Part shown: positions 29,648-53,817 of the stretch, in pieces
Position numbering within the stretch: the stretch's first letter is position 1
How the letters are laid out: each line of letters starts with the position of its first letter
From: Flexithrix dorotheae DSM 6795
GTDB lineage: Bacteria > Bacteroidota > Bacteroidia > Cytophagales > Flammeovirgaceae
Reading direction: 5' to 3'
Assembly (NCBI RefSeq): GCF_000379765.1
Contig: NZ_KB903431.1
Coordinates: 62,001-126,000 of the forward strand
Length of the DNA: 64,000 nucleotides
The notes under the pieces: model-generated
What the model saw: the letters and a program-made list of their open reading frames with translations, nothing else
What the model was told of the DNA's origin: nothing
Database searches by the model: none
Program-made: the position numbers and the translations under genes

Positions 29648-30220
29648 TTAGACCATCCCGGCAAAGCCCATAAAAGCCATGGATAAAATTCCCGCTACAA
29701 TTAGCGCTGCGGGAACGCCTTTCATGCCTTCTGGTAATTCAGTCATTTCCATTCTTTCTCTTAAACCTGCAAATAAAATAATGGCTAGCCCAAAACCTAT
29801 TGCACTGGCAATGGCAAAAATTACACTTTCTATCAGGTTGTAATCATTTTGTATCACCAGAATGGCTACACCCAAAATGGCACAGTTAGTTGTAATTAAA
29901 GGAAGGAAAACGCCCAATGCCTGAAATAGGGCAGGACTCACTTTTTTTAGAATAATTTCCACCATTTGGACAAGCGAGGCAATCACCAGAATGTAGGCAA
30001 CAGTTTTAAGGAAGGTAATCTCAAAGGGAACCAGAATAAAGTGCTGAATCAGATAAGTGACAATTGTGGCTACTGTCATTACAAAAAGCACTGCTCCACT
30101 CATACCCAATGCCGTAGTCGTTTTATTGGAAACTCCCAAAAACGGACATATCCCCAAAAATTGAGATAAAACAATATTATTGACAAAAATAGCGGAGATA
30201 AAAATGATGAAATATTCCAT
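29648..30220 (-). CDS. rnfA: Rnf electron transport complex subunit A
   Basis: A 190-residue integral membrane protein with six helices. FVNNIVLSQFLGICPFLGVS at the N-terminus and LITTNCAILGVAILVIQND in the middle are the RnfA/NqrE signatures; the Cys residues in each half hold the membrane iron-sulfur centre shared with the paired RnfE subunit. It forms the ion-conducting core of the ferredoxin (or flavodoxin):NAD+ oxidoreductase. It is last in the operon and lies 280 bases after rnfE, while all other gaps in the operon are short, because a hairpin repeat lies in that gap. It may rely on read-through or its own promoter. Confidence 0.95.
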   Translation of the reverse strand: MEYFIIFISAIFVNNIVLSQFLGICPFLGVSNKTTTALGMSGAVLFVMTVATIVTYLIQHFILVPFEITFLKTVAYILVIASLVQMVEIILKKVSPALFQALGVFLPLITTNCAILGVAILVIQNDYNLIESVIFAIASAIGFGLAIILFAGLRERMEMTELPEGMKGVPAALIVAGILSMAFMGFAGMV

Positions 30221-30285
30221 AATATCAGAATGATTAATGCTTTTTAAATTCCTTAACTTTTAAACTCACTCTCATTTGAATAAAG

Positions 30286-30390
30286 GTGGCTGAGAAAGGC
30301 GATTGTATCGCCAGTTTTGCGGAAAGTTGCAAACTTTCTTTTATTTAACAGGCTTAAGTAAACGTTTCGCTTGATACTTAAGCCATCTGC
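30286..30390. repeat. Multi-hairpin repeat (family A), copy between rnfE and rnfA
   Basis: Three nested elements follow one another: GGCGAT-TGT-ATCGCC (30298-30312), GAAAGTT-GCA-AACTTTC (30322-30338), and GGCTTAAGTA...TACTTAAGCC (30351-30384). The whole unit is the reverse complement of the unit at 35621-35745, with most bases conserved including loops' positions. It interrupts the otherwise compact rnf operon. Confidence 0.85.
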
Positions 30391-30500
30391 GGAATAAACT
30401 GAAAATTCAACTTTAACCGCATCTCAGATGCTATCTTTTTTCTTCTCATTGATATAAAAGCGTTGAAAAATTCTACGCTTAGCTGGGTTTTTAAAATTCC

Positions 30501-31127
30501 CTAACTACTAACCTTCACCCTTTCCTTCTTTTCTTTTTTCCGTTTGAGCCAACCCATCAAGGCAATTAAAAATCCAAGTGCTATAAAGGCTCCTGGTGCC
30601 AATACAAAAACCAACAATCCATCACCAGGAAAAAATTTAAATCCGAATAAAGACAGACTTCCAAGAATTTCCCTGACTGCTCCAAGTAAAGTAAGGGCAA
30701 AAGTAAATCCCAATCCCATTCCCAGCCCATCTACCAAGGAGGAAATTGCATTATTTCTGGAAGCAAATGCTTCTGCTCTGCCCAGTACAATACAGTTTAC
30801 CACAATCAGGGGAATAAATAATCCCAGTTGTTCGTGCAACCCGGGTAAATAGCCTTCCATCACTAAATCCACAATGGTTACAAAAGAGGCAATAATTACA
30901 ATGAATGAGGGAATCCTGACTTTATCCGGAATCAGGTTTTTGATCATTGCCACTACAATATTGGACATTACCAACACAAAAGTAGTGGCCAGCCCCATGC
31001 CTAATCCATTGATAGCGGTGCTGGTTACACCGAGGGTTGGGCATAATCCAAGCAACAAGGTAAATACCGGATTTTCTTTGATAAAACCCTTTAGAAAATT
31101 TTGCTTTTGATCAATTACCTTTTCCAT
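30501..31127 (-). CDS. rnfE: Rnf electron transport complex subunit E
   Basis: A 208-residue membrane subunit, homologous to RnfA and inserted in the opposite topology. [20 protein letters not shown] near the N-terminus and [20 protein letters not shown] in the middle are the RnfE/NqrD signatures, with the two conserved Cys residues. It closes with a basic tail ([14 protein letters not shown]). It starts 6 bases after rnfG ends, so it is translated with the operon. With RnfA it makes the membrane core for electron and ion transfer. Confidence 0.95.
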
Positions 31128-31133
31128 GGCGAT

Positions 31134-31712
31134 TTAATTTTTTTGTTCTTGTTGAAAAGCATCATAAGCAATTTGAACGGCCTCACAGAATGCTCTTGAG
31201 GAAATGGTCGCTCCGGAAATGGCATCCACTTCTCCACCATCTTTAATTACTTTCATATTATAAGTTTCCGGGTTTTGATCAATAAACTGATTTTTAAATT
31301 TTTCCTCACCCATTTTGGAGCCGAGTCCCGGAGTTTCTTTATGGCTTAAAACAGAAATATTATTAATTTTTCCGTCAGCTTTGAATCCTACCATTAATTG
31401 TATTTCACCACTATAGCCTTTATTCGAACTGGTTTTAATGGCTATGCCCAACAATTTCACTCCTTTTTTTACCAGGTAAAATTCCAGACTGTCTTCACCA
31501 TTGGGCATGGGTACTTTTCTTAATTCTTCCAGAGGCTGATTGTCAAAATCTGGTAAAACTGCTGCAATGGCCTGCTTTTTCTTTTCCATTCTGGCCTTCT
31601 GGATAGGAGCTTTGGTAAATTCATAAACAAATCCCAAGGCTGCTGAGGCTACTAAGGTCACCACCAGAAGGGTCAAAAACATATTGAAAAATGATGATTT
31701 TTTCTTTCCCAT
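31134..31712 (-). CDS. rnfG: Rnf electron transport complex subunit G (covalent FMN)
   Basis: A 192-residue protein with one N-terminal membrane helix (FFNMFLTLLVVTLVASAALG) and a periplasmic FMN-binding domain. The flavinylation motif is DAISGATISSRAF near residue 168-180, with the Thr of SGAT as attachment site. SHKETPGLGSKM is the second family block. It moves electrons on the periplasmic side between RnfD and the membrane core. It starts 12 bases after rnfD. Attachment needs the flavin transferase ApbE, which is not in the window. Confidence 0.95.
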   Translation of the reverse strand: MGKKKSSFFNMFLTLLVVTLVASAALGFVYEFTKAPIQKARMEKKKQAIAAVLPDFDNQPLEELRKVPMPNGEDSLEFYLVKKGVKLLGIAIKTSSNKGYSGEIQLMVGFKADGKINNISVLSHKETPGLGSKMGEEKFKNQFIDQNPETYNMKVIKDGGEVDAISGATISSRAFCEAVQIAYDAFQQEQKN

Positions 31713-31724
31713 GGCATTAGTTTT

Positions 31725-32726
31725 TTAACTTAAAAATCCCTTTGCTCCAAACCGATGCGGTTTGATGTATTTATCAATAAGCGGTACGAATGCATTCATA
31801 ATTAATATGGCAAAAGATACGCCTTCCGGATAGCTTCCGAATGCCCGAATCAGTACGGTAATCAGGCCAATTCCCACCCCAAAAACTAACATTCCCTTTG
31901 TGGTCATGGGAGAAGTGACATAGTCTGTTGCCATAAAAATAGCCCCCAGCATTACCCCACCAGTTAAAACATGAAATAACGGATCGGCATGTTGGGTAGG
32001 ATCGATCAACCAGAGTAAGCCCGAAAAAACGAAAATGCTGCTTATCATTGCTACCGGAATATGCCAGGTAATGATTTTTTTGTAAAGCATGTAAACTAAC
32101 CCCAGCAATAAAGCAAAGGCAGAAATTTCCCCAAGTGATCCACCCTGAAAACCCCAAAACAATTCAGAGTAGGAGGGGGCAGAAACCATTAAGGTTTCCA
32201 TGCTTTCTCCATTACCCAGGCCTTCTTTTAAACTTCCCAAAATAGTGGCTCCCGAAGCACCATCAATTTCCATAAAACCATTGCCAGGAACGGGCCAGCT
32301 CGTCATTTCAACAGGAAAAGAAATGAGTAGGAATACTCTGCCTACCAAAGCCGGATTGAAGGGATTATTCCCCAATCCGCCAAATGACATTTTACCTATC
32401 CCAATCGCCACCAGACTACCAATTACAATAATGTACCATGGAAGACTGCTGGGCACATTGAAAGCCAGCAAAATACCAGTAATAATTGCTGACCCATTCC
32501 AGACATCGGGTTCTCTTTGTAGCAAGTATTTGGCAATTGTAAATTCGAAAATTAAACAGGAAATAACAGCCAGACTGGTTACATAAATGGCTTCAATCCC
32601 GAAATTGTAAATGGAAAAAAGCAAGGCTGGTACCATGGCAATCACCACTCCATACATTAATTCCTTCACCGACTGCTCCTGATGAACATGGGGAGAGGGA
32701 GAAACGGTCAAAAATTTGGTACTCAT
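31725..32726 (-). CDS. rnfD: Rnf electron transport complex subunit D (covalent FMN)
   Basis: A 333-residue membrane protein with about nine helices. It begins LTVSPSPHVHQEQSVKELMY, typical of RnfD/NqrB, and has GLGNNPFNPALVGRVFLLIS. The covalent FMN site is GASGATILGSL near residue 157-167. GGVMLGAIFMATDYVTSPMT and PLIDKYIKPHRFG close the family pattern. It couples electron transfer to ion pumping in the Rnf complex. The gap to rnfC is only 4 bases, so translation is probably coupled. Confidence 0.95.
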   Translation of the reverse strand: MSTKFLTVSPSPHVHQEQSVKELMYGVVIAMVPALLFSIYNFGIEAIYVTSLAVISCLIFEFTIAKYLLQREPDVWNGSAIITGILLAFNVPSSLPWYIIVIGSLVAIGIGKMSFGGLGNNPFNPALVGRVFLLISFPVEMTSWPVPGNGFMEIDGASGATILGSLKEGLGNGESMETLMVSAPSYSELFWGFQGGSLGEISAFALLLGLVYMLYKKIITWHIPVAMISSIFVFSGLLWLIDPTQHADPLFHVLTGGVMLGAIFMATDYVTSPMTTKGMLVFGVGIGLITVLIRAFGSYPEGVSFAILIMNAFVPLIDKYIKPHRFGAKGFLS

Positions 32727-32730
32727 CGCT

Positions 32731-34068
32731 TTAGTTGTTTAGTTTCTTCACCATTATTTTTCCCAATCGCATATAATCCACAATTGGTCGATTGGAGGGA
32801 CATTCGAAAGAACAAGAACCACATTCTATGCAATCCATAATGTTGTCTTCCTTCGCTTTTTCGTAAAATCCTTTTTTGGCCAGTAACATCATATGGAATG
32901 GCTCCAAACCCATAGGGCAGGCTTCTACACATTTTCCACAGCGAATGCAATTGTATTCTTTGGCTCTTTTGGCTTCATATTCGGGAATGATCAAAATCCC
33001 TGAAGTTGCCTTGGCAATGGGAACTGAAATATCCGCAAGGGCTTTTCCCATCATTGGGCCACCACTTACCACTTTTCCCGTGTTTTCTGGTAAACCGCCA
33101 GCAGCATCAATTAAATGGCTGACCGGAGTGCCAACCCTTACCCAGAAATTCGAAGGTTTTTCCAAACCCTTTCCGGTAACTGTCACCACCCTTTCTATTA
33201 CTGGTTTATTTTTCTGAACGGCCTGATAAACCGAGAAAGTAGTTCCTACATTATGCACCACACAGCCCACATCAATGGGCAATCCACCCGGAGGAACTTC
33301 ACGGTTTAATAAAGCCTTAATCAATTGTTTTTCACCACCTTGTGGATATTGGACCTTTAAAGAGGCGATTTTTATTCCCCGGTAATCTTTGCTTTTTTTC
33401 TTTAGTAATTTAATGGCATCTTTTTTATTATTTTCAATTCCGATGATGGCATTTTCCACGCCAAGAGATTTCATTAGGATTTGGGTACCGACTAATATTT
33501 CTTCAGGTTTTTCCAGCATTAACCGATGATCTGCAGTAAGATAGGGTTCACATTCCACACCATTTACAATCAAATGATCAGCTGATTTTCCTTCTGGCAC
33601 AGAAAGTTTTACATGGGATGGAAAAGCGGCTCCTCCCTGGCCAACCACACCCATTTCCATGATTTTCGCTAATATTTCTTTTTTATTCAGTTCTATTTCT
33701 TTTACCAAACCCGGAGTTCTGTCAATGCCCTCTTCCCAATCATCTCCCTTTACCCTGATGGCAATCGCCATTTTTTTGAATCCGCTGCTATCCATTATTT
33801 CTTCCACTTTTCCTACTTTTCCTGAAACTGAAGCATGAATGTTAGCCGAAACAAATCCTTCATGAACTGCAATGATTTGCCCTGCTTTTACTGTATCTCC
33901 TCTTTCCACTAATGGTTCTGCAGGTTTGCCAATATGTTGGGAAATAGGAATGTAAACTATTTTAGGCAGGGAAATCTCCTGGATATGGGATTTTGCAGAT
34001 AACTTGTTGTCATCGGGATGAACACCGCCCTGTGGGAAAGTTTTAAGATGGTTCAGTAAGTTTAGCAT
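32731..34068 (-). CDS. rnfC: Rnf electron transport complex subunit C (NADH/FMN and iron-sulfur)
   Basis: A 445-residue peripheral subunit. The N-terminal half has a barrel-sandwich part (AEPLVERGDTVKAGQIIAVH), then the NADH/FMN-binding domain with MGVVGQGGAAFPSHVKLSVP and VNGVECEPYLTADHRLM. An SLBB region follows. The C-terminal third carries two [4Fe-4S] motifs, CIRCGKCVEACPMG and CIECGSCSFECPSN. It is the site of NAD+ reduction or NADH oxidation on the cytoplasmic face. It lies 13 bases after rnfB and 4 before rnfD. Confidence 0.96.
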   Translation of the reverse strand: MLNLLNHLKTFPQGGVHPDDNKLSAKSHIQEISLPKIVYIPISQHIGKPAEPLVERGDTVKAGQIIAVHEGFVSANIHASVSGKVGKVEEIMDSSGFKKMAIAIRVKGDDWEEGIDRTPGLVKEIELNKKEILAKIMEMGVVGQGGAAFPSHVKLSVPEGKSADHLIVNGVECEPYLTADHRLMLEKPEEILVGTQILMKSLGVENAIIGIENNKKDAIKLLKKKSKDYRGIKIASLKVQYPQGGEKQLIKALLNREVPPGGLPIDVGCVVHNVGTTFSVYQAVQKNKPVIERVVTVTGKGLEKPSNFWVRVGTPVSHLIDAAGGLPENTGKVVSGGPMMGKALADISVPIAKATSGILIIPEYEAKRAKEYNCIRCGKCVEACPMGLEPFHMMLLAKKGFYEKAKEDNIMDCIECGSCSFECPSNRPIVDYMRLGKIMVKKLNN

Positions 34069-34081
34069 AATTCTTTAGGTT

Positions 34082-35005
34082 TTAGGCTTCATCTTTTTTA
34101 TCATTCTCCTTTTTTACCATTCCAATAATATCTACATCCTCCTTTTTAGCAGTTGCCTTGGCTTTCCTCGGTGGGCGTTCTTTTTTGGGAGGAAAATTAA
34201 CAGCTATGATATTGTGGGCATCGCAAACATCTACGCATTTCCTGCACAACTTACACAATTCCGGGTCAATTCTGGCCAGGTTATTTTCTATAGTTATGGC
34301 ATCGTATCGGCATACCTCATCACATTTGGCACAGCCGGAACAGGCCACTTCACAAACTTTTCTGGCAGCTCCTCCTTTGTCCGTATTCACACACCCGACA
34401 TAGATTTTCCGGTTCCTTCTTCCCTGGGGCCAAAGCTCCATAATTTCCTTGGGACAAGCCGTAACGCAGGCATTACAGGCAGTACACTTATCCTCAATCA
34501 CCACAGGCAGCCCTGTTTTTTCATCCATATACATGGCATCGAACTGGCAGGCATCTACACATTCTCCCAAGCCCACACAACCATAAGCACATCCGGTATC
34601 ACCGCTATATAAACTGGCGGCTATGGTACAGTTTGGTGCACCATCATAAATATTTGTTTTTTTGCGGTATTCCACCGATCCGGTACATCTCACTACAGCC
34701 ACATAAGGATCGCGTTCTTCCACTTCCAGTCCTAAAATTTCCGCCACCTGTTTCATCACTTCATTTCCGCCAACCGGGCAATGCAATTCAGATAAATCAT
34801 TTTTACTTACAGCTGCTTCTGCAAAGGCCCGGCAACCCGGAAATCCGCAACCGCCACAATTGGTGGTCGGTAAAACTTCTTCCACATTACCGATTTTTGG
34901 ATCTTCATAAACTTTAAATTTCCTTGAAACAAAATATAGTATGATGGCTGCAATTGCTCCTAAGGCGCTGAGAGAAAGGATGGTATAAAGAATTGAATCA
35001 CTCAT
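34082..35005 (-). CDS. rnfB: Rnf electron transport complex subunit B (polyferredoxin)
   Basis: A 307-residue protein with one N-terminal membrane helix (about 8-26) and many iron-sulfur sites. TNCGGCGFPGCRAFAEA (from about 48) is the RnfB-specific cluster motif. Further groups are CTACNACVTACP, CSGCAKCDEVC and CKLCRKCVDVC, plus CAYGCVGLGECVDAC, so this is an extended polyferredoxin form. It accepts electrons from ferredoxin or flavodoxin in the cytoplasm and passes them into the complex. The tail is Lys/Asp rich. It starts the rnf genes proper, 42 bases after the rseC-like gene. Confidence 0.95.
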   Translation of the reverse strand: MSDSILYTILSLSALGAIAAIILYFVSRKFKVYEDPKIGNVEEVLPTTNCGGCGFPGCRAFAEAAVSKNDLSELHCPVGGNEVMKQVAEILGLEVEERDPYVAVVRCTGSVEYRKKTNIYDGAPNCTIAASLYSGDTGCAYGCVGLGECVDACQFDAMYMDEKTGLPVVIEDKCTACNACVTACPKEIMELWPQGRRNRKIYVGCVNTDKGGAARKVCEVACSGCAKCDEVCRYDAITIENNLARIDPELCKLCRKCVDVCDAHNIIAVNFPPKKERPPRKAKATAKKEDVDIIGMVKKENDKKDEA

Positions 35006-43442: not shown

Positions 43443-43595
43443 CCCTTCTCAAACAATTTGCTTCTTCAATGATTTAAAGTTATAAATCAAAGCATTTATT
43501 TCCGCATTTTTATATTAAAAAGAACATGATTTTAGAATTGTTTTTCGTGTGGCGATAGTTCATTTTAAATATAAAGTTGAAGTATTTCTCAATCA

Positions 43596-43627
43596 TTTTT
43601 ATTATCAGAACATTACTGATATTTTTG
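43596..43627 (+). promoter_or_regulatory. Putative ispG promoter
   Basis: TATTTTTG at 43620-43627 matches the Bacteroidota -7 consensus TAnnTTTG. A T-run at 43596-43600 lies where the -33 element would be. Transcription would begin about 43634, just before the ATG at 43651. Confidence 0.42.
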
Positions 43628-43650
43628 TCCAAAACAAGAACAAGGGATCA

Positions 43651-45648
43651 ATGAATCAAAAAACCGAAATTCATCCATTTCAATATTGTAATAGTTTAAC
43701 TGAATACCAGCGCAGGAAAACCATAGAAGTGAAAATAGGCGATATTCCAATGGGTGCCCATCATCCAATAAGGGTGCAATCCATGACCACCATCGATACC
43801 ATGGATACCATTGGTTCTGTGGAACAAACTATCCGAATGGTAGATTCCGGTTGCGAATATGTGCGAATTACGGCTCCAAGCATCAAAGAAGCCCAGAATC
43901 TGGAGAATATTAAGAATGAGCTGCGTAAAAGAGGATACAATGTTCCTTTGGTGGCCGATATTCATTTTACCCCAAATGCAGCAGAACTGGCGGCCAGAAT
44001 TGTTGAGAAAGTGCGGGTAAACCCGGGAAATTATGCCGATAAAAAGAAATTTCAGGTACTTGAATATGATGATAAAACCTATCAGGAAGAGATAGAGCGA
44101 ATTCGGGAAAGGTTTACACCTTTGGTAAAAATCTGTAAAGAATACGGCACTGCCATGCGGATTGGCACCAATCATGGTTCTCTGTCCGATAGAATTTTAA
44201 GTCGCTATGGCGATACGCCAATCGGAATGGTAGAATCAGCTTTGGAGTTTCTGAGAATTTGTGAAGATGAAAGTTATAATAACATCGTCATTTCCATGAA
44301 AGCCAGTAACACACAGGTGATGATTCAGGCTTACCGGTTGTTGGTCCAAAAACTGGATGAAGAAGGTTTACAACCCTATCCTTTGCATTTGGGGGTAACT
44401 GAAGCCGGAGAAGGGGAAGACGGAAGAATAAAATCAGCGGTAGGAATCGGAACGCTGTTGGAAGACGGGTTGGGTGATACTGTAAGGGTTTCTTTAACTG
44501 AAGAACCCGAGTTTGAGGCTCCGGTGGCAGCAGCTTTAATCAATAGATATACAAACAGAAAAGAAAAATCTACTGCAATTCCTCCAATAGCAGTGGCTCC
44601 AAAAGACCCTTTTGGTTATGAGAGAAGGAAAACAGTTGAAGTTCAGAATATTGGTGGAAGTAATGTGCCCAGGGTAATTGCTGATTTTAGCAAGGTGGAC
44701 GAAATATCCATGAACGATTTAAAAAATATTGGTCATTTCTACCTTCCAGCTACAGACAAATGGGGTATGAATGATCAGGGAAGTGATTATATTTATTCAG
44801 GCAAAAATAAAATCAGTTTTATGCTGCCGAATGGCATAAAGGAAATTGTGGATGCTGAGGTTTGGGAAAATGTAACAGATCAGCAAAATACACTTCCTTT
44901 ATTTACCAAAGCAGAATGGCAAAAAGCTACAGCCAGACATTCAAAAATCAATTTCATAAAAGTTGGGATAAAAGATATTGATGAGGATTTTGAAAAAGCA
45001 ATAGCGGGTGCAGAAAATGTGGTTTTAATTCTGGAAACTACTAATGAACATGCGATGCCTGAATTGAGAAGGGTGTTTTTTGAATGCTATCAAAAGAAAA
45101 ACCCGGTACCTGTGGTGATAAAAAGGCAATATGCTGAAATGTCAGAAAGTGATTTACAACTGTATGCCTCTACGGATATTGGTGGGTTGCTTTGTGATGG
45201 ATTTGGAGATGGAGCTCTGATCGGGACAGATTTGCTGGAAAAACCCAAAGCAGAATTACTTTCTGTTCTAAAAATGTATAATGCCACAGCTTTTGGTATT
45301 TTGCAGGCAGCCAGAACCAGGATGACTAAAACCGAATATATTTCCTGCCCTTCCTGTGGAAGAACCTTATTCGATTTGCAGGAAACTACTGCCATGATCC
45401 GGAAAAGAACGGATCATTTGAAAGGTGTAAAAATTGGAATAATGGGTTGTATAGTCAATGGACCAGGGGAAATGGCGGATGCAGATTATGGTTATGTGGG
45501 TTCAGGAAAAGGCAAGATTACCTTATACCGGGGACAAGAAGTGGTAAAAAGAGGAGTGCCATCGGAAAAGGCTGTGGATGAATTGATCGAACTTATTCGG
45601 GAAGATGGAAACTGGCTGGAGCCGGTGGTTGGGGAAACCGTTATGTAA
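43651..45648 (+). CDS. ispG: 4-hydroxy-3-methylbut-2-en-1-yl diphosphate synthase, long form
   Basis: A 665-residue IspG/GcpE enzyme of the non-mevalonate isoprenoid pathway, forming HMBPP from MEcPP with electrons from flavodoxin or ferredoxin. The ATG at 43651 is chosen over a GTG at 43549 because a purine-rich AAGGGA precedes it and a promoter box lies between the two. VKIGDIPMGAHHPIRVQSMT starts the TIM barrel; PLVADIHFTPNAAELAA and RIGTNHGSLSDRI are barrel blocks. A large middle domain (about 270-530) marks the long form found in Bacteroidota, Chlamydiae and plants. The [4Fe-4S] residues are in ISCPSCGRTLFDLQ and GCIVNGPGEMADADYG near the end. A flavodoxin gene lies at 52021. Confidence 0.96.
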   Translation: MNQKTEIHPFQYCNSLTEYQRRKTIEVKIGDIPMGAHHPIRVQSMTTIDTMDTIGSVEQTIRMVDSGCEYVRITAPSIKEAQNLENIKNELRKRGYNVPLVADIHFTPNAAELAARIVEKVRVNPGNYADKKKFQVLEYDDKTYQEEIERIRERFTPLVKICKEYGTAMRIGTNHGSLSDRILSRYGDTPIGMVESALEFLRICEDESYNNIVISMKASNTQVMIQAYRLLVQKLDEEGLQPYPLHLGVTEAGEGEDGRIKSAVGIGTLLEDGLGDTVRVSLTEEPEFEAPVAAALINRYTNRKEKSTAIPPIAVAPKDPFGYERRKTVEVQNIGGSNVPRVIADFSKVDEISMNDLKNIGHFYLPATDKWGMNDQGSDYIYSGKNKISFMLPNGIKEIVDAEVWENVTDQQNTLPLFTKAEWQKATARHSKINFIKVGIKDIDEDFEKAIAGAENVVLILETTNEHAMPELRRVFFECYQKKNPVPVVIKRQYAEMSESDLQLYASTDIGGLLCDGFGDGALIGTDLLEKPKAELLSVLKMYNATAFGILQAARTRMTKTEYISCPSCGRTLFDLQETTAMIRKRTDHLKGVKIGIMGCIVNGPGEMADADYGYVGSGKGKITLYRGQEVVKRGVPSEKAVDELIELIREDGNWLEPVVGETVM

Positions 45649-47522: not shown

Positions 47523-50500
47523 ATGGAAAATGAGAAAAAATTTATCACCTGCGATGGTAATACAGCAGCCACCAATATTGCCTATGCTTTTAGTGAAGTA
47601 GCGGCTATTTACCCTATTACCCCTTCATCTGATATGGGAGAAAAAGCAGATGCCTGGTCTGCCATGGGTAAAAAGAATCTTTTTGGGGAATCAATTGATG
47701 TTGTGGAAATGCAATCGGAAGCAGGTGCCGCTGGTGCCATCCACGGAGCCCTGACCGGAGGAGCCTTAACCACCACTTTCACCGCCTCCCAGGGCTTATT
47801 GCTGATGATCCCGAATATGTTTAAAATCGCAGGGGAAATGTTGCCAACCGTTTTCCATGTTTCGGCCAGATCGGTTGCCTGTCAGGCACTTTCCATTTTT
47901 GGTGACCACTCTGATGTGATGTCAACCAGGAGTACAGGATTTGCCATGCTGGCTTCCGGAAATGTGCAGGAAGCTCAGGATATGGCAGCCATTGCTCATT
48001 TAGCTTCTTTGGAATCAAAAATCCCATTTTTACATTTTTTCGATGGTTTCAGAACTTCTCATTCTATTCAAAAAATTGAATCGATTGATTATGAAGTATT
48101 GCGGTCGATGTTGGATATGAAATTTGTAGAGGAATTCAGGTCTGGAGCCTTAAAACCTGAAGATCCTGTATGTAAAGTGGGTGCTCAAAATCCTGATGTT
48201 TATTTCCAGGGAAGGGAAACTGTGAACAAATATTATGATGCCTGCCCTGATATTGTGAATAAATATATGAAATTGTATTTTGAGAAAACAGGTCGGAAGT
48301 ATGAGTTATTTGAATATATAGGGGACCCAAAAGCTGAAAAAATCCTCATTTCCATGGGATCTTCTACTGAGACTATTGAAGAAACTATAGCCTATTTAAA
48401 TAAGCAGGGCGAAAAAGTCGGAGCAATAAAAATTCACCTGTACAGGCCATTCTCAGTTAAAGATTTTGTAGATAAAATTCCTGCTTCTGTCAAAAAAATA
48501 GCAGTGTTGGATAGAACTAAAGAACCCGGAGCCATTGGAGAACCGCTTTATCTGGATGTGGTGACTGCGCTACAGGGAAAACCAATTAAAGTAATCGGTG
48601 GAAGATATGGACTTTCTTCTAAGGAATTTACCCCTGCCATGATCAAAGAAGTATTCAAACATCTGGATAATGATGGCTGGCATAATTTCACAGTGGGAAT
48701 CAATGATGATGTGACTAATTTATCACTTCCAATGAATGGGGAAATTGATACAGAACAGGAAGGTATCGTAAGGTGTAAATTCTGGGGTTATGGTTCTGAT
48801 GGAACGGTAAGTGCCAATAAAAATGCCATTAAAATTATTGGAGATGGCACAGGTTTGTTTGTGCAGGGGTACTTCCAATACGATTCCAATAAATCGGGTG
48901 GATATACGGTTTCCCACCTAAGGTTTGGGAAAAAGCCTATTCAATCCGAATATTTACTGACCAATGTAGACTTTGTGGCCCTTCACCGCCATCAGTATAT
49001 TGGCAGATATGATATCCTGGAAGGTATCACCGAAGGAGGAACTTTTCTCATCAATACCAGTAAAAAACCTGACGCTGTATTCAGCACTTTTACCAAAGAA
49101 ATGCAGGATACCATTAAGGCTAAAAAAATCAAAGTTTTTGCCATAGACGGATCGAAAATCGCCAAAAGTGTTGGGCTTGGTGGTAGAATCAATACCATTA
49201 TGCAAACCGCTTTCTTTAAGTTGTCCGGAATTCTTCCTGAAAAAGAAGCCATTGCCATGATTAAAAAATACATGGAAAAACAATTCAGGAGGAAAGGACC
49301 GGAAATAGTGGAAATGAACCTTAATGCTATTGATGCCGCAGTTGATGCTGTTTTTGAAGTTCCAATTCCTCAGGAAATAGAAAAATTTGCCCAACCTGCA
49401 TTGGTGGTTCCCGAAGATGCCGGAGAATTTGCCAATAAAATAATGGATCCTGTTCTTAGACTAAAAGGAGATAGTATTCCTGTTTCCATGATGCCATTAA
49501 ATGGGGCTATTCCAACCGGAACCAAACGATTCGAACGAAAAGGGAAGCCGGGAAATCCAACCAAATTTGTAGAGAAACTTGATTTTTGTCCGAGTTGCAA
49601 TATTGCAGATCCTTATTTCGAGTATCCCGGATGCTGCAATGGATGTGGGGAAGTTTGGTACATCCATCTGGTGACCCAGCTCTACGGTGATAGAATGATG
49701 ATTGCCAATGCTACAGGTTGTTCCTCTATTTACGGTGGTACATTCCCATCTACTCCTTATACTAAAGACAAAAACGGCAGAGGACCTGCATGGGCCAATT
49801 CATTGTTTGAAGATAATGCTGAATATGGGTTTGGTATGCGTCTGGCGGTTGATTCCAACAGGAAACAACTTAAAAGCAATGTGGAACAGCTATTTGATTT
49901 GGGAACCACTTTAGAGCTCAATACAGTGCTGAAAACTGCCCTTGAAAATTGGGGCAAAGTGGATGATGAAGCAAAAGCCAATGCCGAAAAAATAAAGCAA
50001 TTCCTTCCGGATGCATTGGAAAAAGCTTCGGATAAGGCCAAACCAGTGATTAAAAAGATCATTGAATTACAGGATTACTTTGTAGATAAGAGTGTGTGGA
50101 TTTTTGGTGGTGATGGCTGGGCCTATGATATTGGTTATGGTGGCTTGGATCACATTATGGCCTCTGATAAAAATGTGAATGTATTAGTACTAGATACTGA
50201 AGTTTATTCCAATACGGGAGGGCAGGCCTCTAAAGCTACTCCAAGAGGCGCTGTGGCCAAATTTGCAGCCAATGGTAAACAGGCAGGGAAAAAGAATCTG
50301 GGGATGATGATGACTTCTTATGGTTCCTGCTATGTGGCTTGTGTGAATTATGGAATGGACAGAGAACAAACTGCAAAAGCGTTGGTGGAAGCTGAAAAAT
50401 TTGATGGTCCATCTATCGTGATTGCTTATTCTCCCTGTATCGCCCATGGTTATGACATGAAATTCAATAAGAAGCAAGCGGAAAAAGCTACACAGTCTGG

Positions 50501-50729
50501 CTACTGGCCAATGTACCGCTTCAACCCTGAATTGCTTGAAAAAGGCGAAAATCCATTTATTTGGGAAACTGAAGAAGCGACTATGGAATTCAAGGATTTT
50601 TCCGGAAATGAAATTCGATACAAAACGCTTCAAATGGCGAATCCCGAAGAAGCCAAACGCTTACAGAAATTAGCGAAAATGGATAACGAAAGGCGATTCC
50701 ACGATTTGAAACACCTGTCAGATAACTAA
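47523..50729 (+). CDS. nifJ: Pyruvate:flavodoxin oxidoreductase lacking the internal two-cluster ferredoxin domain
   Basis: A 1068-residue pyruvate oxidoreductase that converts pyruvate and CoA to acetyl-CoA and CO2. The N-terminal domain has YPITPSSDMGEKADAW and SRSTGFAMLASGN-like blocks; the TPP domain has IFGGDGWAYDIGYGGLDHIM and LDTEVYSNTGGQASKATPRG. The proximal [4Fe-4S] ligands are C705, C708 (CCNGCGE), C733 (NATGCSS) and C972 (YSPCIAHG). Usual NifJ proteins have about 1170-1190 residues. The domain with two ferredoxin-type CxxCxxC clusters, which should follow GAIPTGTKRFERKG, is missing and replaced by about 20 residues that include C689 and C692. Electrons must therefore leave from the proximal cluster. 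A dihydroorotate dehydrogenase-like gene and flavodoxin follow. Confidence 0.9.
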   Translation: MENEKKFITCDGNTAATNIAYAFSEVAAIYPITPSSDMGEKADAWSAMGKKNLFGESIDVVEMQSEAGAAGAIHGALTGGALTTTFTASQGLLLMIPNMFKIAGEMLPTVFHVSARSVACQALSIFGDHSDVMSTRSTGFAMLASGNVQEAQDMAAIAHLASLESKIPFLHFFDGFRTSHSIQKIESIDYEVLRSMLDMKFVEEFRSGALKPEDPVCKVGAQNPDVYFQGRETVNKYYDACPDIVNKYMKLYFEKTGRKYELFEYIGDPKAEKILISMGSSTETIEETIAYLNKQGEKVGAIKIHLYRPFSVKDFVDKIPASVKKIAVLDRTKEPGAIGEPLYLDVVTALQGKPIKVIGGRYGLSSKEFTPAMIKEVFKHLDNDGWHNFTVGINDDVTNLSLPMNGEIDTEQEGIVRCKFWGYGSDGTVSANKNAIKIIGDGTGLFVQGYFQYDSNKSGGYTVSHLRFGKKPIQSEYLLTNVDFVALHRHQYIGRYDILEGITEGGTFLINTSKKPDAVFSTFTKEMQDTIKAKKIKVFAIDGSKIAKSVGLGGRINTIMQTAFFKLSGILPEKEAIAMIKKYMEKQFRRKGPEIVEMNLNAIDAAVDAVFEVPIPQEIEKFAQPALVVPEDAGEFANKIMDPVLRLKGDSIPVSMMPLNGAIPTGTKRFERKGKPGNPTKFVEKLDFCPSCNIADPYFEYPGCCNGCGEVWYIHLVTQLYGDRMMIANATGCSSIYGGTFPSTPYTKDKNGRGPAWANSLFEDNAEYGFGMRLAVDSNRKQLKSNVEQLFDLGTTLELNTVLKTALENWGKVDDEAKANAEKIKQFLPDALEKASDKAKPVIKKIIELQDYFVDKSVWIFGGDGWAYDIGYGGLDHIMASDKNVNVLVLDTEVYSNTGGQASKATPRGAVAKFAANGKQAGKKNLGMMMTSYGSCYVACVNYGMDREQTAKALVEAEKFDGPSIVIAYSPCIAHGYDMKFNKKQAEKATQSGYWPMYRFNPELLEKGENPFIWETEEATMEFKDFSGNEIRYKTLQMANPEEAKRLQKLAKMDNERRFHDLKHLSDN

Positions 50730-50823: not shown

Positions 50824-51867
50824 ATGGCAAATCTGAAAACAAAATATATGGGGATCAATCTCAAAAATCCTGTGATTGTAGGGGCAAGTAACCTGGTGCA
50901 GGATGTGAAAAATCTCCAGAAAATAGAAGAAGCCGGTGCTGCGGCTATCGTTTATAAATCTCTTTTTGAAGAGCAGATTCAACTTGAATCTCTGGAAATG
51001 CAAAATCAGTTGGATTCTTATCAGGACTGGGACCCTGAACATGCTACTTTATTTCCCGACCTGGAACATGCCGGCCCTGCCGAATATATAATGCATCTAA
51101 AAGAGGCAAGGGAAGCTGTGAAAATTCCTTTAATCGCCAGTATTAATGCGGTTTATGAAGATTCCTGGGTGGAGTATGCTAAAAGACTTGAGGCCACTGG
51201 TGTGAATGGGCTTGAATTGAATTTTTATGCCAACAATACAGATTTTTGGAAAGCTGAAACTGACATTGAAGCTGAGCAAGTGGATATTTTGAAAAAAGTG
51301 AAAGCAGCTGTAAAAATTCCGGTAAGTGTAAAATTGAGCCCGTTTTATACCAATACCTTGAGGCATATTGCAAGGTTGGATAGAAGTGGGGCAAGTGCTT
51401 TTATTTTATTCAACAGGTTATTTCAGCCTGATATTGATATTCAAAAAGAGGAACATCATTTCCCCTACAATTTCAGTTCCCAGAATGATAATCGTCTGGC
51501 CATTCGCTATGCCGGGTTATTGTACGGTCATGTGGGAGGATCTATTTGTAGCAATACGGGTATCCATACCGGAGAAGATGCCATTAAAACTATTTTGGCA
51601 GGAGCTGATACGGTTCAGGTAGTGAGTGCGCTTTACAAAAAAGGCATTGGATATTTATCTACCATCATATTGGAAATCGAAAAATGGATGAATGTCAAAG
51701 GTTATCAATCCATTAAAGATTTTCGGGGAAAACTGTCTGCTAAAAATGATCCATCTCCATTTACCTATAAAAGGGCACAATATGTAGATATCCTTATGAA
51801 ATCAGAAAACTTCGAGACTTTCCATCCCAAAGGTAATGAAGAAATTTCCTGGGAAGACAGATGGTAA
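50824..51867 (+). CDS. Dihydroorotate dehydrogenase-like flavoprotein
   Basis: A 347-residue TIM-barrel protein of the PyrD family. It begins LKTKYMGINLKNPVIVGASN, contains LIASINAVYEDSWVEYAKRL, and KIPVSVKLSPFYTNTLRHIA with the flavin-contacting Lys, and ends with ICSNTGIHTGEDAIKTILAG and the phosphate-binding AGADTVQVVSALYKKG. Proteins of this type are commonly encoded next to nifJ in Bacteroidota and cyanobacteria and are annotated as dihydroorotate dehydrogenase-like. The active-site Cys or Ser loop is not clear (FNRLFQPDI replaces the usual motif), so true pyrimidine synthesis is doubtful. A flavin-linked role in reductant handling is inference. Confidence 0.88.
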   Translation: MANLKTKYMGINLKNPVIVGASNLVQDVKNLQKIEEAGAAAIVYKSLFEEQIQLESLEMQNQLDSYQDWDPEHATLFPDLEHAGPAEYIMHLKEAREAVKIPLIASINAVYEDSWVEYAKRLEATGVNGLELNFYANNTDFWKAETDIEAEQVDILKKVKAAVKIPVSVKLSPFYTNTLRHIARLDRSGASAFILFNRLFQPDIDIQKEEHHFPYNFSSQNDNRLAIRYAGLLYGHVGGSICSNTGIHTGEDAIKTILAGADTVQVVSALYKKGIGYLSTIILEIEKWMNVKGYQSIKDFRGKLSAKNDPSPFTYKRAQYVDILMKSENFETFHPKGNEEISWEDRW

Positions 51868-52020: not shown

Positions 52021-52530
52021 ATGGGAAAAATAGGCATATTTTATGGCTCTACTGAAGGTAATACAGAAAGAGTTGTAACTAAAATACAGGAAAAATTGGG
52101 GGGTGAAGGTGTCGCAGAGTTGGTGAATGTAGAATCAGCTTCCGCAGAGGATTTCGATAGCTACGATAACGTAATTCTGGCGTCTTCTACCTGGGAAATA
52201 GGAGAGTTGCAGGAAGACTGGGACAATTTTATCGATGAATTGGAAGATGCTGATTTTGATGGCAAAAAAGTAGCTTTTGTGGGAACAGGTGATGCAGATG
52301 GATATCCGGATACTTTTCTCGATGCCATGGGATTGATTTATGAAAAAATTGAAGATAAGGATATTACGCTGGTAGGACTTTGGCCCACCGATGGCTACAA
52401 TTTTGAAGATTCTAAAGGATTAAAGGATGGCAAATTTTTGGGTCTGGCGATAGATGAAGATAACCAGGCCAACCTGACGGATGAAAGAGTCGCAAAATGG
52501 GTGGAGATGATTAAGCCAGAAATGGTTTAG
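52021..52530 (+). CDS. fldA: Flavodoxin
   Basis: A 169-residue long-chain flavodoxin. KIGIFYGSTEGNTERVVTKI carries the FMN phosphate loop STEGNT at about 10-15. LASSTWEIGELQEDWDNF is the 60s loop with an aromatic near the isoalloxazine ring, and VAFVGTGDADGYPDTFLDAM the 90s loop. Like other flavodoxins it is very acidic, fitting docking to basic partners. It carries single electrons at low potential and is the natural acceptor for the NifJ enzyme encoded upstream and a donor for IspG. The 153-base spacer suggests it may have its own promoter. Confidence 0.95.
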   Translation: MGKIGIFYGSTEGNTERVVTKIQEKLGGEGVAELVNVESASAEDFDSYDNVILASSTWEIGELQEDWDNFIDELEDADFDGKKVAFVGTGDADGYPDTFLDAMGLIYEKIEDKDITLVGLWPTDGYNFEDSKGLKDGKFLGLAIDEDNQANLTDERVAKWVEMIKPEMV

Positions 52531-52758: not shown

Positions 52759-53817
52759 ATGGCAGCAATTACCACAAAAAAACCTGTGTATCCGATTAGT
52801 GCTTCTCTTAGAAGATTTTTGGTGAATCACCATAGGGAAATTGAAGTGCCAATTACTTATTCCGATTTGTTCCATTATACCAGTTCCATCAATCTTGAAG
52901 ACAAAAATGGAAATGATACTTATTGGGAAACTGTATTTTATTCGCAGGCAGATAATGAGCATATTCAGGCTTGTTTGAAGCAGGTTTATGCACTTATGAA
53001 AGCTGATGGAGATACTTCCATTATGGACCACTTGTATATAGACCGAGTGGACTTATGTATGTATGGCAACACCAAACCTTTCCGGGTTAGGATTGTAAAT
53101 AAGTTAAATGACCTGTTTGACTATTTTTACATTAAACAAGCGGATGCTTCAAGAATTTATGGTTTGGAACTGGAACACCTTTTATCTCCAAATAAAATTA
53201 ATTATCTTGTAAAGGGGAATACTTTACTGGAAGAACACATTCCCGGAATTCCCGGTGATTCCTTTGTGAAGCATTATGTTATTCCCCAAAAAGTAAATGC
53301 AAGACGGCTGGCAAAGGAGTTTGTGAAGTTTAATGAAAGGTGTCTGGTGCAGCTTTTAGGCGATATTCGGGGAGATAATTTTGTAGTGGAAATCATTCCC
53401 GATTTTGATGAAGTGTATTATCGAATGCGTGCTATTGATTTTGATCAGCAGGCTTATGATGGCAGAAAATCCATTTATATGCCTCAATTTTTTAAGGAAA
53501 ATTACCCAATAATTGACCTTGGTCTTAAAAATATGAAACCTGAAGTTGAACTTCAATACCAAAAGGAAGAGCGGAGCAGAATTGCTAATAGAATCAGGAC
53601 TTCAGAATTACAACTAAATGCTTTGGTAAAAACCATGTCAAATGACAGAATTTCTACCGAAGAAAATGTAGATCAATTGAAATATGAACTGGCAGAATTA
53701 TATAATGATTCGGAATTTATTGCCTGCCGAAACATGGGTGAAATTCTAAACTCCAGCTTGAGAATGATTATGAAAAAGCCTGTTAGGTCTGTGGGGAAAG
53801 TTACTTTCAACATGTAA
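52759..53817 (+). CDS. Conserved-looking soluble protein of unknown function
   Basis: I do not recognise this 352-residue protein. It has no signal peptide or membrane helix. A central stretch reads LLGDIRGDNFVVEIIPDF, then VYYRMRAIDFDQQAYDG. A GDI..DN followed about 20 residues later by IDFD resembles the catalytic and metal-binding loops of kinase-like phosphotransferases, but the glycine-rich loop and the rest of the fold are not evident. The C-terminal 80 residues are helical and charged (QYQKEERSRIANRIRTSELQ), a likely coiled coil. It is a single-gene unit between flavodoxin and a small membrane protein. The kinase idea is inference and weak. Confidence 0.65.
   Translation: MAAITTKKPVYPISASLRRFLVNHHREIEVPITYSDLFHYTSSINLEDKNGNDTYWETVFYSQADNEHIQACLKQVYALMKADGDTSIMDHLYIDRVDLCMYGNTKPFRVRIVNKLNDLFDYFYIKQADASRIYGLELEHLLSPNKINYLVKGNTLLEEHIPGIPGDSFVKHYVIPQKVNARRLAKEFVKFNERCLVQLLGDIRGDNFVVEIIPDFDEVYYRMRAIDFDQQAYDGRKSIYMPQFFKENYPIIDLGLKNMKPEVELQYQKEERSRIANRIRTSELQLNALVKTMSNDRISTEENVDQLKYELAELYNDSEFIACRNMGEILNSSLRMIMKKPVRSVGKVTFNM

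Follow-up and report, generated by a model that had tools for sequence, protein, structure and literature searches.

Can a single-chain pyruvate:ferredoxin/flavodoxin oxidoreductase dispense with the ferredoxin domain built into its own chain and, if so, which carrier takes its electrons? The question is raised by a nifJ gene in a 64,000-nucleotide stretch of the Flexithrix dorotheae DSM 6795 genome (contig NZ_KB903431.1, positions 62,001 to 126,000), hereafter the window, in which the following features are found:

47523..50729, plus strand: nifJ, single-chain pyruvate:ferredoxin/flavodoxin oxidoreductase without domain V, 1068 aa (TIGR02176, Pfam, split alignment to 6cin/1b0p/7plm)
49539..49640, plus strand: junction in place of the ferredoxin domain, residues 673-706 (residues invariant in 12/12 short rows)
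49635..49646, plus strand: C705-x2-C708, proximal [4Fe-4S] ligands, with C733 and C972 (invariant in the short and long rows covering them)

The nifJ reading frame has no internal stop, and its product reaches 1501.2 bits against TIGR02176, the NifJ equivalog model (cut-off 911.35), with the match divided into two stretches. The Pfam domains POR_N, PFOR_II, POR, EKR and TPP_enzyme_C follow one another in this order (E ≤ 0.001). No Fer4-type model matched anywhere in the chain at that threshold, and the identical scan of two long relatives, run as a control, placed Fer4 models between EKR and TPP_enzyme_C. When aligned to PDB sequences with phmmer, residues 9-698 correspond to residues 5-698 of the Moorella enzyme (6cin) and residues 694-1067 to its residues 798-1170. 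The resulting gap of about 104 residues is the 2[4Fe-4S] domain, that is, the intramolecular ferredoxin domain bearing the medial and distal clusters, called domain V in PMC5020499. The alignments to Desulfovibrio africanus PFOR (1b0p and 7plm) show the domain V gap as well, split at the matching position. The proximal ligands C705, C708, C733 and C972 are all present in the same chain, numbered as the first-pass annotation of this DNA had them, together with the C-terminal TPP domain. That annotation, made from sequence alone, had proposed a NifJ enzyme devoid of its internal two-cluster ferredoxin domain, and the Pfam scan, the split alignments and the motif counts given below all bear this out. 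We considered whether the domain might lie elsewhere in the chain or in a neighboring subunit and rejected both: Pfam and phmmer found no other ferredoxin domain in NifJ, and Pfam found no separate Fer4 subunit beside nifJ in the window, the nearest among the Fer4_7 matches listed being rnfB/rnfC, 12.5 kb off. The protein resembles the homodimeric NifJ/PFOR enzymes (TIGR02176; D. africanus 1b0p/7plm, Moorella 6cin) in its single chain, domain order, TPP domains, EKR motif and proximal ligands. It passes the TIGR02176 cut-off; since domain V is absent, we call it a variant of this family and not a standard member.

The same junction is found in the window and in 11 other genomes, whose proteins are 72-94% identical to that of the window, which makes it neither a chance event nor an assembly deletion. 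These counts come from an order-level sample of 291 genomes, of which 13 matched NifJ at E ≤ 1e-50 (8 short, including the window genome, 4 long and 1 fragment), and from 8 further loci obtained by a contig search reaching close relatives only: four short (L034, L035, L037 and L039), one long (L036), one fragment (L038) and two that go with genome G001 (L033 and L040). The short set thus comprises 12 proteins, the 8 of the order sample and those of L034, L035, L037 and L039. In G001 the gene is split across two contigs, with the junction on one and the neighboring genes on the other. Three sequences could not be classed and were left out of the counts: L038 (an N-terminal piece at a contig end), G019 (a 184-aa frame) and G457 (a 141-aa frame at a contig end, 73% identity). 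For comparison we used 35 long proteins, hand-picked from the fetched loci and not all of them; long NifJ proteins are 45-64% identical to the window NifJ over the aligned pieces. A twin CxxCxxCxxxC motif precedes CxxCGE in 35/35 of the long rows and in 0/12 of the short ones.

NifJ matched in 61/395 genomes of a class-level sample and in at least 214/395 of a phylum-level sample. Among the matches listed from these two samples of 395 genomes each, none from outside the order was of the short form, G457, of the same class, being unclassable; other phyla were covered through the contig search for close relatives. The outside-order matches listed either break near the position of domain V or are fragments, with the exception of the second NifJ of G633, which breaks earlier. 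This paralogue, a 1037-aa frame, was examined as a possible short form and rejected, as it keeps its ferredoxin motifs. It (L121:5167-8277, same class as the window) is a mirror-image NifJ that retains the ferredoxin motifs and lacks the proximal CxxC and the ANATGC cysteine, without a Pfam POR match.

The junction is conserved in sequence as well as in position. Residues G674, G677, N678, P679, K685, L686, F688, P697, Y698, E700 and P702 are invariant in 12/12 short rows. C705, C708 and C733 are invariant across the 12 short and 35 long rows, and C972 is found in all 35 long rows and in 11/12 short rows, the twelfth stopping at residue 870. The extra cysteines at the splice behave differently. 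The first-pass annotation had drawn attention to C689 and C692, but a role for them did not hold up: C689 is kept in 2/12 short rows, C692 in 4/12 and C704 in 3/12, and the C689/C692 CxxC pair is restricted, among the 12 short rows, to the window's own genus. There is hence no sign of a replacement cluster, and the idea that C689/C692/C704 form a further cluster or a zinc site was rejected. At nine positions, all short rows share a residue that none of the long rows shows. A 20-residue interval about the splice and the CxxC of the proximal site, chosen post hoc, contains three of these positions, 698, 702 and 715 (P = 0.006 with 350 eligible columns). Purifying selection on the short gene is strong: comparison of the window nifJ with that of its same-genus relative over 870 codons gives dN 0.033 and dS 1.30, a dN/dS of about 0.03.

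On the tree, the short form has a single origin. In this tree of 47 proteins (12 short and 35 long), built without the columns of the trait itself and rooted at the midpoint with no outgroup, all 12 short forms lie on one side of a branch with SH-aLRT support of 100, and one change of state is enough to account for the short and long forms. Because the short clade is nested under midpoint rooting, loss of domain V is favored over gain. Its nearest neighbors are two long forms, from an Elusimicrobia MAG (L036, JAGHAK010000125.1) and from G558 (the locus L114), and both carry the long-form residue at all nine positions fixed in the short proteins. G558 belongs to the same class as the window genome, and no COX1 match was found in it. 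That the closest long relatives are an Elusimicrobia MAG and a same-class genome lacking a COX1 match suggests horizontal transfer or mis-binning.

What, then, receives the electrons? The genes that follow nifJ point to a candidate:

50824..51867, plus strand: dihydroorotate-dehydrogenase-like protein of the PRK07565 subfamily (NF005741, 375 bits against a cut-off of 303)
52021..52530, plus strand: fldA, long-chain flavodoxin, the proposed electron carrier (TIGR01752, 215 bits against a cut-off of 147)
52759..53817, plus strand: conserved protein of 352 aa, fourth gene of the cluster (in 11/12 short-form genomes)

The order nifJ, dihydroorotate-dehydrogenase-like gene, fldA, all on one strand, is kept in 12/12 short-form genomes. 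By comparison, fldA was found in 0/12 long-form loci, nine of which extend at least 4.5 kb downstream and three of which (L111, L114 and L115) extend only 1.5, 1.1 and 0.2 kb. The flavodoxin gene noticed two genes after nifJ in the first reading of the window is therefore a regular companion of the short form. Ordinary NifJ is itself known to use flavodoxin. The dehydrogenase-like gene also adjoins nifJ in 4/12 long loci (L113, L117, L119 and L120), so its adjacency is not special to the short form. Across the order sample, TIGR01752 long-chain flavodoxins occur in 30/291 genomes, namely 8/8 short-form genomes and 22/283 others (Fisher's exact P = 5e-9, a value too small because the genomes are related and the counts are not phylogenetically independent). 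No stand-alone flavodoxin (PF00258) was found in the order's four long-form genomes, G227 matching only within a 575-aa frame. The 352-aa protein is 60-95% identical among relatives; neither Pfam nor NCBIfam matched it at the thresholds applied, and its AlphaFold2 model (mean pLDDT 37.1) was too poor for use. Around the cluster, terminator-like patterns (9 against 6.1 ± 2.6 in shuffled sequence) and promoter-like patterns (14 against 22.2 ± 5.2) are at or near the shuffle level, so that the case for an operon rests on gene order.

A second set of genes in the window may offer an outlet for reduced flavodoxin:

34082..35005, minus strand: rnfB (NF005504 and TIGR01944 over cut-off)
32731..34068, minus strand: rnfC (TIGR01945, 565 bits against a cut-off of 246)
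31725..32726, minus strand: rnfD (TIGR01946 over cut-off)
31134..31712, minus strand: rnfG (TIGR01947 over cut-off)
30501..31127, minus strand: rnfE (TIGR01948 over cut-off)
29648..30220, minus strand: rnfA (TIGR01943 over cut-off)

All six Rnf subunits are thus encoded at 29648-35005, each above an NCBIfam cut-off, 12.5 kb from nifJ and on the opposite strand. The linkage varies among the 11 short loci besides the window. In four of them (L105, L108, L109 and L110) the genes form a co-directional cluster running from nifJ through the dehydrogenase-like gene, fldA and the 352-aa gene to rnf (rnfB onward); no Rnf gene was found within the 2.2 to 13.5 kb following nifJ in five (L035, L037, L039, L102 and L103), and the sequence ends too soon to judge in L034 and L107. 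In G002, Rnf lies 525 kb from nifJ. No Rnf genes were found in the 12 long loci. RnfC occurs in 28/291 genomes of the order sample, comprising 8/8 short-form genomes, which come from five genera in two families (f1: g1, g2 and g8; f19: g26 and g52), and 20/283 others; the P value of 3e-9 (Fisher's exact) is again too small for related genomes. Genetically, short nifJ is thus linked closely to fldA and more loosely to Rnf.

The 20 Rnf genomes without a short NifJ have a different partner. In all of them, a match to a giant PFOR fusion lies 24-43 bases from the rnfC match, with open frames of 1633-1691 aa where they are not cut (for example L124:9589-14598 and L126:8592-13514), so that every Rnf genome in the order sample (28/28) is paired with a pyruvate-type oxidoreductase. 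Besides extra Fer4 motifs, the two fusions that we scanned have a ferredoxin-like domain at the C-terminus. Like the short NifJ, the fusion ties PFOR-type domains to Rnf; unlike it, it adopts the opposite solution of an extra ferredoxin, and its identity to the window NifJ is about 24%. No giant fusion was found in the 8 short-form genomes, a result that is weaker for the incomplete G001 (84%), G011 (77%) and G008 (92%), and no TIGR01752 flavodoxin was found in 19/20 giant-fusion genomes, G044 having one.

Our best reading, to which we assign a probability of roughly 0.6, is that the short NifJ is a lineage-specific one-cluster, single-chain pyruvate:flavodoxin oxidoreductase of the NifJ/PFOR type, coupled to Rnf. 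Judging from the alignments, a short conserved linker stands in place of domain V and its two [4Fe-4S] sites, and the proximal-cluster residues are kept. The company of fldA, and often of Rnf, suggests a stripped-down pathway from pyruvate to flavodoxin to a membrane pump. Pyruvate would be oxidized at TPP with CoA, and the electrons would pass to the proximal [4Fe-4S] cluster, now presumably the floor of the pocket once filled by domain V. Flavodoxin would dock in the emptied pocket and take the electrons directly. Reduced flavodoxin would then deliver them to RnfB, and Rnf would transfer them to NAD+ with ion pumping. Rnf accepts electrons from reduced ferredoxin via RnfB and is reversible (PMC12174285). 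For Treponema pallidum, a PFOR-flavodoxin-RNF route that likewise leads from pyruvate oxidation through flavodoxin to Rnf has been put forward on the grounds of metabolism and the absence of ferredoxin (PMC7512555).

The electron path in short NifJ, its direction and any effect of oxygen are inferred. An analogue is provided by the two-subunit OFORs that lack domain V (Sulfolobus StOFOR, Aeropyrum, Halobacterium; PMC5020499). These enzymes share with the short NifJ a single [4Fe-4S] cluster and the lack of an intramolecular ferredoxin domain; their cluster lies near the surface of a large III/VI pocket able to hold an external ferredoxin, and they are described as relatively oxygen-tolerant. 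Since their cluster is exposed in a pocket, the short NifJ should by analogy expose its proximal cluster to an external carrier, and genetic linkage names FldA as that carrier. We took the pocket from StOFOR because our AlphaFold2 model of NifJ (8 sequences, mean pLDDT 45.3) was too poor for use. The two-subunit enzymes are alpha-beta heterodimers in which one chain carries domains III-I-II and the other domain VI, domains IV and VII being absent (PMC5020499), whereas the window NifJ is one 1068-aa chain in PFOR order; it thus shares with them, by motif, the single cluster without domain V and does not have their separate alpha and beta chains. That its domains stand in PFOR order on a single chain, with 45-64% identity to long NifJ, makes the loss of domain V look independent of the two-subunit OFORs. 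One-cluster OFORs are well known as heterodimers (PMC5020499). Our literature search found no single-chain PFOR without a ferredoxin domain, with most subscription papers outside its reach, and is weak evidence of novelty.

The main rival would keep the one-cluster NifJ and make a free dicluster ferredoxin its principal acceptor, as in the archaeal two-subunit OFORs, flavodoxin being a substitute, for example at low iron. We had entertained the idea that the window genome has no free ferredoxin and dropped it when a lower threshold, a reading of the frames and a family scan gave a YfhL-family dicluster ferredoxin (a 121-aa frame, 96.9 bits against a cut-off of 86). Frames of 120 and 122 aa with a similar weak partial Fer4_7 match occur in G077 and G090, and G090 also has a 126-aa ferredoxin-like frame (below cut-off) beside a 2-oxoacid oxidoreductase alpha-like frame. 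An external dicluster ferredoxin serves StOFOR (PMC5020499), and ferredoxin and flavodoxin are generally interchangeable (PMC5861303). With a second long-chain flavodoxin elsewhere in the window genome besides the YfhL-type ferredoxin, FldA need not be the sole acceptor. The ferredoxin gene, however, lies on another contig than nifJ, and fldA is linked to nifJ in 12/12 genomes; we consider ferredoxin as main acceptor unlikely.

Two sets of relatives of the two-subunit OFORs occur in the window genome (G000). One is a pair in L134. The other comes after a 619-aa GltD-like Fer4 oxidoreductase frame and consists of a 2-oxoacid oxidoreductase alpha frame that passes the TIGR03710 cut-off and a beta-like frame that stays below cut-off (L133, G000:C25:29000-34500). 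A 186-aa Fe-S subunit frame lies between molybdoenzyme large-subunit-like and membrane-anchor-like frames (G000:C80:220263-220820, L129:1263-1820); we considered it as NuoI and rejected this, as it resembles molybdoenzyme Fe-S subunits, with none over cut-off.

A different sink or a reversed flow is a second alternative, in which Rnf would draw on NADH and the ion gradient to reduce flavodoxin, either for biosynthetic Fe-S enzymes such as IspG or for pyruvate synthesis by NifJ. Such reverse flow might occur, given the reversibility of Rnf (PMC12174285), the presence of COX1 in 8/8 short-form genomes and that of ispG upstream of nifJ in the window (43549-45648). Among the fetched stretches, however, no nifJ other than those of the window and of the relative from its genus was found with ispG nearby, which led us to reject IspG as a conserved nifJ partner, and direction cannot be told from sequence; overall, we find this alternative rather improbable. 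Nor does respiration alone separate the forms, since COX1 was found in 15/16 genomes tested (8/8 short and 7/8 non-short). A degraded pseudogene or assembly-truncated nifJ without function, for which nothing speaks beyond the missing domain, can be dismissed given one junction in 12 genomes, the low dN/dS and the conserved gene order.

Beyond the pyruvate:flavodoxin reading itself, we tentatively put forward a wider picture, possible though with the odds somewhat against it as a whole. In this one order of Bacteroidota, Rnf would always be accompanied by a pyruvate-type oxidoreductase in one of two opposite wirings, a fused-on ferredoxin or a discarded domain with flavodoxin. The short form would be the minimal, probably oxygen-hardened version, which would let bacteria with haem-copper oxidases run an ion-pumping branch from pyruvate through flavodoxin to Rnf, and would have converged, as a single chain, on the one-cluster, oxygen-tolerant form of the archaeal OFORs.

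The short NifJ amounts to a deletion experiment, done by nature, on the route by which electrons leave PFOR, and asks whether the two outer clusters set the choice of carrier and the sensitivity to oxygen. The two mutually exclusive solutions within one order, giant fusion with Rnf and short NifJ with flavodoxin and Rnf, open the question of the carrier to comparison. If functional, the pairing with Rnf would give an ion-pumping pyruvate branch to bacteria that also have haem-copper oxidases.
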